Positions 58,948-62,292 of a stretch of 64,000 bases of DNA are shown here, in pieces. Made by a program: the position numbers and the translations under genes. Location: contig NC_085854.1 in the NCBI RefSeq assembly GCF_020906515.1, positions 1,860,001 to 1,924,000 of the forward strand, given 5' to 3'. Position 1 is the first letter of the stretch; every line of letters begins with the position of its first letter. Source of the stretch: Vanrija pseudolonga. Lineage: Eukaryota > Basidiomycota > Tremellomycetes > Trichosporonales > Trichosporonaceae. Below the pieces are notes generated by a model that made no database searches, had not been told where the DNA came from, and saw only the letters and a list, made by a program, of their open reading frames with translations.

Positions 58948-60153
58948 CTACTTGAGGTCGGGAACGACAAACGAAACAGGCGGCAGGCCCCACTCCTTGG
59001 GGTCCCACTGCTCGAGGTGCGCCAGCACCTGCTTGGCGCCAAAGTTGGCATCGGGCTCGAGCGCAAGGAGCTCGGGTTCGGGGACCCAGACGACTGCGGG
59101 GGCGTGAGCGCCGTTCTCTCTCTTGACGCACCATTCATCCCGGCCTTGACGCCGGCCGCGACGCCCGGCCGAGCGTCCTCAAACACGAGGCCGCGCGCGC
59201 GCTCGGCGGCCTGCGCCGCCGTCGGCTCGGCGTCGGGGCTGCCGACGTCCTTGCCCAGCTTTGTCGCCGCCGCGAGGAAGATGTCGGGGTTGGGCTTGCC
59301 CCTGCCTGGGCGCACTTCGGGCGAGTCTGCCGTCAGGATCGCGTCGGCGTCGAAGAGGCCGAAGAGCTCGGGGAGGTGGGCCTGGGGCGGGCGTTAGCGA
59401 GCGGGCGGCAGGAAGTTACTGCCTGCAGCCTGCATGTGTTGCGGCAAGGCAGGGCGTATTGGCGCGATACGCGAGCTCGAGCCACGAGCCGCTGCCACCT
59501 CGGCGCACCTCCGAGACACCTCCGATACACCGCCGCCCCATACTCACCGTCTTGAGCTCAAAGTTGCGCTTGTTGCTCCCCGTTGCCAGCGCGATGGGCA
59601 CCCCGGCCTTGTGCAGGCTCTGCACGAGGGCGACCGCGCCGCGCATGGGCGGAACGCGGCGGAAGAGCTCGTCCTGCATCGCGATACGCTCGGTGAGGTA
59701 GTCGTCGATGCTGAGCTTTTGCTCGAGGCCGGGGAAGTGCGAGAAGAGGTACTCTGAGGCCTCGCGCTGGACTGCGGCGGCGTCAGCGTTGTTGAGCTGC
59801 AGGCAAACCCAGTGGGTGACCCACCCTTGCCCATCAGCCCCGCCTTGATCTCCCAGGTCATCTTGAGGCCATACCGCGCGAGAATGTCGTCTGGGGGTTA
59901 GTGCTGCCCCGGAGGCTAACCCACTCGTGACCTGGGTGTAGATGCGCTGGGCGTCAGTGCTGCGAGCAAGGGCGGCGAACCCACCTCCGAGTCGCTGCGC
60001 CCAGCAGGTCAGTAACCACGAACAGCGGAGGAGATCAGAGTCCGGCTCACACTGCCGTTAGCTCAGTTCCAAACGCCGCGCTTGCTCACTCAGCAGCCCG
60101 TCCATGTCGAAGATGACATATTCGATCTTGGCGCGGAGCGTGGGGGCAGTCAT
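58948..60153 (-). CDS. HAD-superfamily sugar/pseudouridine phosphatase-like hydrolase
   Basis: Proposed exons: 60090-60153, a 1-nt exon at 60051, 59985-59994, 59925-59946, 59825-59890, 59548-59771, 59132-59381 and 58948-59093; 260 residues. The nucleophile motif FDMDGLLIDSE gives Asp16 and Asp18. Then TWEIKAGLMGK, the cap helices, ALATGSNKRNF with the second-motif Ser/Thr, GKPNPDIFLAAA (motif III Lys) and VFEDARPGVAA (motif IV acidic pair) follow. The end VWVPEPEL..FGLPPVSFVVPDLK matches HDHD1/pseudouridine-5'-phosphatase and yeast Dog/Gpp relatives. The Ile22 codon ATC would be built from three exons (A, T and C). Exons of 1, 10 and 22 nt come in a row. The substrate is unknown. Confidence 0.87.
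60051..60051 (-). other. putative 1-nt exon (T) in the HAD phosphatase gene
   Basis: The single minus-strand T is preceded by intron 60052-60089 (38 nt, GTGAGC donor, GAGCTAAC branch, CGGCAG acceptor). It is followed at once by intron 59995-60050 (56 nt, GTGAGC donor, TACTGAC branch, GCGCAG acceptor). Joining A, T and C gives Ile in the family motif DGLLIDSE; skipping it loses the frame. Confidence 0.7.
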
Positions 60154-60397: not shown

Positions 60398-62292
60398 ATG
60401 TCCGAGAAAGCTGCCACACCGCAGTCGCTGCCCGCGCCGGCGTCTACCCCCGCCGACACGCAGCGTGCGGGCGAGAACCGCAAGATCAAGTTCATCGCCG
60501 GCGCGCTGCTCGCGCTGTTCCTCGTCGTGCCGCTGCTTGGCGGCACGGCCGGCTGCGCGGAGCATGCAAAGTCCGCCATGGCGAAAGTCACCGGCAAGGG
60601 CAAGCACCACGGCGGCCACGGCGGCCATGGGCATCACCACAAGCCCAAGCCCAGCCCCAAGGGCTTCTGCCCTGCGCAGCCCGCCCCCTTGAACGTCGGC
60701 GACAACTGGGACCCCGCAGCGGAGGAGGGCTATGGCCTCGCGGCGGCACAGCGCCTCGCGCGCGCGGTGCAGATCAACACCGTATCGTACGACAACGCGC
60801 CTGCCGACCCCAAGGACCCGGCGTTCGACGGGCACTACAAGTTTGCAGAGTACCTCTCCGCCGAGTTCCCCAAGGTGTACGAGACGCTGCAGCACGAGGA
60901 GGTCAACACCCACGGGCACCTGTACACCTGGAAGGGCAGCAACGAGGGCTTGAAGCCCGTGTACCTCATGGCTCATGAGGACACTGTGCCCGTCAACCCT
61001 GAGACTATCGGGCAGTGGGCCCATGCCCCGTGGTCGGGCGACATCACCACCGACGAGGAGGGCGCGCCGGGCACCTGGATCTGGGGCCGCGGCGCGAGCG
61101 ACTGCAAGAACTCGCTCGTGGGCATCCTCGCTGCTATTGAGAAGCTCGCAAACGAGGGCTGGACGCCGGAGCGTACCGTCCTGATCGGGTACGGCTTTGA
61201 CGAGGAGGTGAGCGGGTTGTCAGGTTTGGGATGAGAATAGCCCTAATCACCGCAGATCTCTGGAAGCCGCGGCGCCGGCCCCATCTCGGCCATCATCCAG
61301 GAGCGCTACGGCGTCGACAGCATCGCGTTCCTCGTCGACGAGGGCTTCAGCGGCGTCGAGGACGACGTGTACGGCCTCCGCATCGCGTCCCTCGGCATGG
61401 CGGAGAAGGGCAGCACGAGCGTCAAGCTGACGGTCGACACGCTCGGCGGTCACTCGTCCGTCCCGCCCCCGCACACTGGCAGTGAGTTGTCGCACGGCTT
61501 CCTGTCCGCTCAACTCTAACTCCCTGCCCAGTCGGCTATATTTCCAAGTTCATCACCCAGATCGAGGAGCACCCCTTCAAGCCCGAGCTCACCGAGCAGT
61601 CGCCGTACCTCAAGTACCTCTCCTGCCTGTCCGAGCATGCGCCTAGCATCCCTGGCAAGCTCAAGAAGGCGGTGCAGAACCCCAAGAAGTGGGGCAAGCT
61701 CGCCAAGAAGCTCGCGGCCGCCGACCTCAAGGTGAACGCCTTCCTGGCCACCACAACCGCCGTGGACCTCATCAACGGCGGCGTCAAGGTCAACGCGCTG
61801 CCCGAGGTCGTGACTGCCGTCGTCAACCACCGCGTGTCGTTCGTGTCGTCGGTCAACGAGACGCGCCAGCACTACCTTGATGTTTTGGTGCCGTACGCCA
61901 AGAAGCTCGGCTTCAGCGTCACGGCGTTCGGTGAGGAGGAGGAGCGCACCGACCGCCACTTGACCATTGAGTCTGTCCCCCGCGGCGCAGAGAGCGGCCT
62001 CGAGCCCGCGCCGCACACCCCCGCCGACGCGCCCCCCTTCGAGCTCCTCGCCGGAACCATCAAGACCGTGTTTGGCGAGGACACGATCGTGTCCCCCACC
62101 GGCATGTACGCCAACACGGACACGGCGCGTACCTGGCGCCTCACGAAGCACATCTTCAGGTTCAACCCCGCGCGTGTGACGGACGGACTCAACGTCCACA
62201 CGGTCAACGAGCGCATGAAGCTCGACGGCCACCTCAGCACCATCCGCTTCTACTACAAGCTGCTCCACAACACTGCCGGGTGGACTGACTAG
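60398..62292 (+). CDS. CPS1: vacuolar carboxypeptidase S (M20 metallopeptidase)
   Basis: Three exons: 60398-61207, 61256-61481 and 61532-62292; 598 residues. A single signal-anchor segment (about 31-52) is followed by a His/Gly/Lys-rich linker (69-82) and the M20 domain. Metal and catalytic motifs: LMAHEDTVPV (HxD), WGRGASDCKNS, GFDEEISG (Glu-Glu), FLVDEGFSG and the dimerisation-domain GGHSSVPPPHTG. The late His is LNVHTVNERM. Cps1 is sorted through multivesicular bodies to the vacuole and removes C-terminal residues, notably next to glycine. It is divergent from the HAD gene with 244 bp between starts. Confidence 0.92.

Follow-up and report, generated by a model that had tools for sequence, protein, structure and literature searches.

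A single thymine between two short introns as a probable one-nucleotide exon in a phosphatase gene of Vanrija pseudolonga

The T at position 60051, on the minus strand of a 64,000-nucleotide stretch of Vanrija pseudolonga DNA (hereafter the window), lies alone between two short introns of a HAD phosphatase gene. From the sequence, a coding exon of one nucleotide is by far the best reading of this base and, in our judgement, very probably the correct one. The present analysis adds that gene models of related species break down at this very point; this speaks against an error in the sequence and suggests that the exon is old and shared.

The gene is complete and consists of eight exons on the minus strand, from 60153 to 58948, which after joining translate into an uninterrupted protein of 260 amino acids. 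Exon 1 (60090..60153, 64 nt) runs from the ATG to GAC ATG GAC GGG CTG CTG A and ends in phase 1. It is followed by intron 1 (60052..60089, 38 nt; donor GTGAGC, branch site CTAAC, acceptor CGGCAG), the putative exon 2 (60051..60051, the single nucleotide T) and intron 2 (59995..60050, 56 nt; donor GTGAGC, branch site CTGAC, acceptor GCGCAG). Exon 3 (CGACTCGGAG, 59985..59994) has 10 nt, C GAC TCG GAG, comprising the third base of an isoleucine codon and the codons for D, S and E. Beyond intron 3 (59947..59984, 38 nt), the 22 nt of exon 4 (59925..59946) encode RIYTQVT and the first base of an asparagine codon. Intron 4 (59891..59924, minus strand; GTGGGT...CTAAC...CAG) is, at 34 nt, the shortest of the seven introns of the gene. 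The remainder is composed of exon 5 (59825..59890, 66 nt), intron 5 (59772..59824, 53 nt), exon 6 (59548..59771, 224 nt), intron 6 (59382..59547, 166 nt), exon 7 (59132..59381, 250 nt), intron 7 (59094..59131, 38 nt, with a CTCAC branch site) and exon 8 (58948..59093), which includes the stop codon TAG. Introns 1 and 2, with their GTGAGC donors, CTRAC branch sites and YAG acceptors, carry the same kind of signals as the other introns. The distance from the branch site to the intron end is 5 nt in intron 1 and 6 nt in introns 3 and 4; in intron 2, 13 nt follow CTGAC, with CAG at the end. On the plus strand, a divergent neighbouring open reading frame (60398-61234) starts with MSEKAATPQSL and contains a hydrophobic stretch near the N-terminus as well as a linker rich in His; by its look, it may be a carboxypeptidase S / M20-type peptidase.

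Comparison of the 260-residue protein with Pfam identified a Hydrolase domain (PF00702, E = 1.2e-20), and the best solved relative by sequence was a Pseudouridine-5'-phosphatase (9m7l, E = 2.2e-36). Among the 14 NCBIfam families listed, a single one, the broad HAD-IA family (TIGR01509), scored above its cut-off, and no equivalog passed. The gene thus probably encodes a pseudouridine-5'-phosphatase-like HAD phosphatase, the substrate of which is not settled by NCBIfam. The closest database protein among the matches listed belongs to Vanrija albida (Trichosporonales), with 89% identity in the best local alignment. A protein search of the species' own genome returned five matches, all within the phosphatase gene, and hence no paralogue. 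Scans of viral contigs with the homologues P0001 and P0005 yielded pattern matches in 3 and 8 stretches, respectively, none of which encodes a relative.

Joining the exons produces the codons CTG CTG ATC GAC TCG GAG, i.e. LLIDSE, in which ATC is split as A|T|C over exons 1, 2 and 3 and T60051 is the middle base. This T has AG immediately upstream and GT immediately downstream, and both flanking introns possess a full donor, branch site and acceptor. We enumerated all splicing solutions with one or two introns of at least 25 nt, using GT or GC donors from 60105 to the end of exon 3 and AG acceptors while keeping exons 3-8 fixed. Nine solutions were free of stops and kept the frame, one of which uses GT-AG introns throughout; it includes the T60051 exon and spells DGLLIDSE. 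Each of the other eight relies on one or more GC donors and alters the length of the motif. The base-exact anatomy and the uniqueness of this GT-AG solution, with exons 3-8 kept, together indicate that T60051 is required for the reading frame. Retention of intron 1 leads to a stop at codon 32, the TAA lying within the intron's own branch site, and retention of intron 2 after removal of intron 1 to a stop at codon 23; either partly spliced form, if left unfinished, thus carries an early in-frame stop. Omission of T60051 results in a stop at codon 43. The isoleucine also matches the relatives: among the matches listed, 74 of the 78 named rows from outside the Tremellomycetes have I at this position and four have L. 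The original prediction had placed a lone T at 60051 between an acceptor (CTAAC..CAG) and a GTGAGC donor, followed by a 10-nt exon, in a HAD phosphatase gene. All of its coordinates are correct, and the 10-nt exon and the protein family are as it described them. Its claims that one inserted base is needed to keep the frame and that the resulting ATC codon gives DGLLIDSE are borne out by the enumeration and by the joined translation.

To judge how readily such an arrangement arises by chance, we defined a strict intron-like cassette (GTRNGY...CTRAY...YAG) and counted it in the window and in 30 simulated strands of 64 kb each, generated by a second-order Markov model. The two strands of the window contain 57 and 50 cassettes, compared to 7.5 per strand (s.d. 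2.9) in the Markov sequence. Pairs of cassettes 0-40 nt apart were absent from the 30 simulated strands and occurred five times in the window, always on the minus strand; three of these five fall in the phosphatase gene, with spacings of 1, 10 and 22 nt. In 264 kb searched on both strands (the window together with a single 200-kb block from contig C1, in all some 1% of the genome), the pair around T60051 is the sole strict pair less than 10 nt apart, and looser signals gave further single pairs at spacings of 0, 2 and 6 nt in the same sequence. An internal branch site followed by AG-N-donor was found in one of 878 donor-to-acceptor segments of 75-129 nt on both strands of the window, namely at T60051, a fraction which is descriptive only as the segments overlap one another. 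Two side observations came from these scans. At 39729-39728 on the minus strand, two loose-signal cassettes are separated by two bases (CT) in surroundings that appear non-coding by eye, and this pair is probably due to chance. A second cluster of close-packed strict cassettes, spaced by 15 and 32 nt, lies at 20973-20781 on the minus strand, and given this cluster there may be other micro-exons in the window.

We next compared the DGLLIDSE region with homologous proteins. The set comprised 120 listed out of 2970 matches: 24 rows named as Tremellomycetes, 78 other named rows and 18 without an organism name; assignment to the class was presumed from genus names, Vanrija alone having been looked up. 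Among these listed matches, a motif fitting DG[LI][LMI]-x-[DGN][ST][EY] was intact in 4 of 24 Tremellomycete rows, in all 78 other named rows and in 17 of the 18 nameless ones. Hence the motif was not intact in 20 of 24 versus 0 of 78 named rows listed (Fisher p = 1e-17), although the database rows are mutually related and p-values overstate their independence. Two extra Naganishia rows were also broken (22 of 26 Tremellomycete rows not intact), and among 117 further rows 111 were intact, the exceptions being P0151, P0159, P0160, P0161, P0184 and P0227. The four intact Tremellomycete rows are P0005 (C. neoformans) with I, P0079 (Mrakia) with L, P0003 (Kockovaella) with S and P0006 (Naematelia) with G at the variable position. 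P0003 and P0006 keep the motif length, but with residues absent there from all 78 named rows listed from outside the class.

The failures are mainly, not wholly, of three kinds. P0001, P0004, P0008 and P0052 read DGLL and then jump, usually landing at the intron 4 acceptor; P0080 jumps from DGLL to beyond that acceptor. In P0007, P0009, P0011, P0018 and P0025, the gap before D[ST]E is filled with other residues. P0002, P0012, P0010, P0045 and six Kwoniella rows have lost the N-terminus. A lost N-terminus alone is no pointer to the T60051 junction, and exons 3 and 4, with their 10 and 22 nt, could alone upset gene callers. The gap-filled models, being correct from DSE onward, do point to this junction. 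Residue traces at the breakpoints give further indications. Of the 12 broken models in which DGLL is retained, nine follow it with a residue whose codons all begin with A, one with a residue that may have such a codon, and two with a residue that never does (P0018 with V and P0025 with L, which do not fit an exon 1 ending in A); nine of 12 compares to a background of 20% (binomial, 6e-5, again among mutually related rows). A residue with A-initial codons is expected where exon 1 ends in A. Seven broken models have a residue before D[ST]E, which is Ser in four of them (P0002, P0007, P0009 and P0012), as expected from reading through AG|C GAY, although four further codons also stand for Ser. Such a read-through does not account for P0011 (V), P0018 (R) and P0025 (C). 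Both signs, the A-initial residue and the Ser before D[ST]E, are combined in one species in P0009 (C. floricola).

The insert of P0007 (Papiliotrema) back-translates to AT GTAYGT...YTNACN...AGY GAY, with Ser set to AGY by choice, and could plausibly represent the donor, branch site and acceptor of an intron; in Papiliotrema, the T may belong to exon 1 and be followed by an ordinary intron. The published model of the second C. neoformans protein, P0018, is probably faulty: P0013 and P0016, which match it in 93.5% and 88.1% of aligned residues, read DGLLIDSE, whereas P0018 carries 21 residues where these two have a single Ile. Overall, the failures of the relatives' models appear to fit one fixed phase mismatch, and in several relatives the residue traces of the annotated proteins hint at a donor directly behind the A and an acceptor in front of the C. 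The intact P0079 and P0005 speak against conservation, and the exon status of C. neoformans is not readable from the protein. On balance, the pattern of misannotated proteins makes it rather likely that much of the class Tremellomycetes, Cryptococcus included, inherited the one-nucleotide exon from a common ancestor and that most of the named models seen are wrong because of it. On this reading, a one-base exon in a conserved enzyme would have been correctly spliced ever since that ancestor. Judging from genus names, we take this reading to cover the orders Trichosporonales, Tremellales and Filobasidiales.

Three other readings of the locus would dispense with the one-nucleotide exon. The assembly could lack one base of exon 1 or of exon 3, and a single ordinary intron of 95 nt would then separate the two. 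One-base assembly errors do exist, and 95 nt lies within the intron range of this gene (34-166 nt), but the internal acceptor-T-donor would then be a coincidence of the sort seen once among the 878 comparable segments. Models from other species and other assemblies, moreover, fail at the same motif in 20 of the 24 named Tremellomycete rows listed, which makes a sequencing error unlikely; we have rejected it on this ground and regard it as highly improbable. The junction could also be formed by one 91-nt GC-AG intron with its donor GCAAGC at 60085 and its acceptor ending at 59995. This solution is stop-free and keeps the frame, and GCAAGC is, by our judgement, a fair-looking GC donor. The resulting DGLLSDDSE, however, has two residues added where all 78 named non-Tremellomycete rows listed have exactly one, and two complete GT-AG introns would be left unexplained. 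With the motif length constant in relatives and the enumeration as described, the GC-AG alternatives were rejected, and we give this one very little credence.

Finally, exons 2-4 might be skipped altogether, from the donor at 60089 to the acceptor at 59891, leaving the small exons unused, as seems to be the case in the V. albida model P0001 (DGLLNDILARYG). The skipped exons add up to 33 nt (1+10+22), so that, arithmetically, this GT-AG event keeps the frame as well, and P0001, P0004, P0008 and P0052 read as if annotated in this way. It would, however, remove DSERIYTQVT, which is present in P0002 (DSERIYTQVT) and P0005 (DSERIYTEVT), with similar residues at this place in the listed non-Tremellomycete homologues. 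As the skipped residues are present in homologues, exon skipping was rejected too; we consider it extremely improbable.

We propose that T60051 would be a real, constitutive coding exon of one nucleotide, flanked by two ordinary short U2-type introns which lie one base apart inside a single Ile codon (phases 1 and 2). Recognition would be by intron definition, with a separate splicing reaction for each intron, and simultaneous processing of both would be unlikely given the single base that separates the acceptor of the first from the donor of the second. The product would be a HAD phosphatase of the pseudouridine-5'-phosphatase type in which the DxDGLLIDSE motif is intact. This course of splicing in the cell, including the order of events, is what we infer from the sequence. 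Either order would be possible, with the 38-nt upstream intron probably leaving first because it is transcribed first. Since the primary transcript already contains the full GTGAGC at 60050, the 56-nt intron could equally go first; the order put forward in the original prediction, beginning with the 38-nt intron, is plausible but unproven.

Intron 1 ends at 60052 and intron 2 starts at 60050, and neither interrupts the signals of the other, so the arrangement is not a stwintron; the original prediction had drawn this distinction, and it holds. As all donor, branch and acceptor signals are intact and separate, no order of removal is forced. A zero-length recursive splice site (AG|GT), also called a ratchet point, is likewise not present, the sequence being AG-T-GT with one base in between. 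An obligatorily sequential removal, in which excision of the 38-nt intron creates the donor of the second intron in a recursive or stwintron-like manner, is nevertheless conceivable: only one base separates the two sites, and excision of intron 1 leaves the donor in the context AT|GTGAGC with an A at -2. The GTGAGC donor is, however, complete before intron 1 leaves, and the acceptor of intron 1 is complete with or without intron 2. In addition, the available text of PMC5033589 describes snoRNA-host introns one base apart as spliced by the classic mechanism and uses the wording 'recursive splicing (no internal exon)'. We therefore consider a forced sequence of this kind unlikely.

The T60051 exon would be one of a known, very rare kind. 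A one-nucleotide exon was described in Arabidopsis APC11 (Guo and Liu 2015, PMC4674806), where a downstream fluorescent reporter was also used in protoplasts, and Yu et al. (2022, PMC8831610) reported such exons for both APC11 and VPS55 in land plants at large. As far as the accessible parts of these papers go, the plant exons resemble T60051 in that a single coding nucleotide between two introns is essential for the frame and was missed by annotation, and they are conserved across a large clade. They differ in being backed by cDNA, RT-PCR or RNA-seq, while T60051 is known here from its sequence, and the APC11 intronic region is 422 nt long compared to the 38- and 56-nt introns around T60051. 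In fungi, a one-nucleotide exon has been reported in CYP621A P450 genes of Fusarium (Nelson and Syed 2026, PMC12940212), which its authors, in the portions available, count as only the second case described and as the first from a fungal gene. This is again a nuclear coding gene with the base in a conserved motif, a phase mismatch between the neighbouring exons and wrong automated models. In that ascomycete case, the base is a G in the middle of a Gly codon and is supported by SRA reads; T60051 is the middle base of an Ile codon in a HAD phosphatase of a basidiomycete. Single-base exons also occur, according to the text available, in snoRNA host transcripts of the Candida parapsilosis group (PMC5033589), where fungal introns lie one base apart and cluster III is spliced classically; these ascomycete transcripts are non-coding and have no reading frame at stake. 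Together with VPS55, they make one-nucleotide exons somewhat less rare than the authors of PMC12940212 state.

Stwintrons, as far as described in the accessible text (PMC5639578, PMC6616335), similarly pack two short U2 introns which are removed in separate reactions and can defeat automated annotation, but there a splice signal of one intron is split by its partner, which dictates the order, unlike the complete and separate introns around T60051. An 8-nt micro-exon in a Phanerochaete P450, mentioned in the portion of PMC12940212 at hand, is also tiny, basidiomycete and located in a conserved motif, with eight bases instead of one, and codon-sized microexons have been noted in Tuber, in a source available in part. 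Our searches of open-licence papers brought up no one-nucleotide exon from a basidiomycete and no report on a micro-exon or smallest exon in Cryptococcus, the microexon matches seen in the accessible text concerning RNA-seq mapping settings. Among mitochondrial genes, placozoan cox1 reportedly contains a one-nucleotide exon. Further mitochondrial cases, associated with group II introns in an ascomycete, appear in the available text of PMC12308204.

With one base between two short introns, the locus is a hard test of how small an exon can be under intron definition, and the catalytic motif of an enzyme depends on this single base. RNA-seq data for C. neoformans have been published. If the exon is conserved in the Tremellomycetes, it would offer a natural comparative system in species with such data, C. 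neoformans for example, and would account for a recurrent error in the published models of this phosphatase. More such exons could be uncovered by the criterion applied here, in which the models of many relatives break at a single junction and share a fixed phase mismatch.
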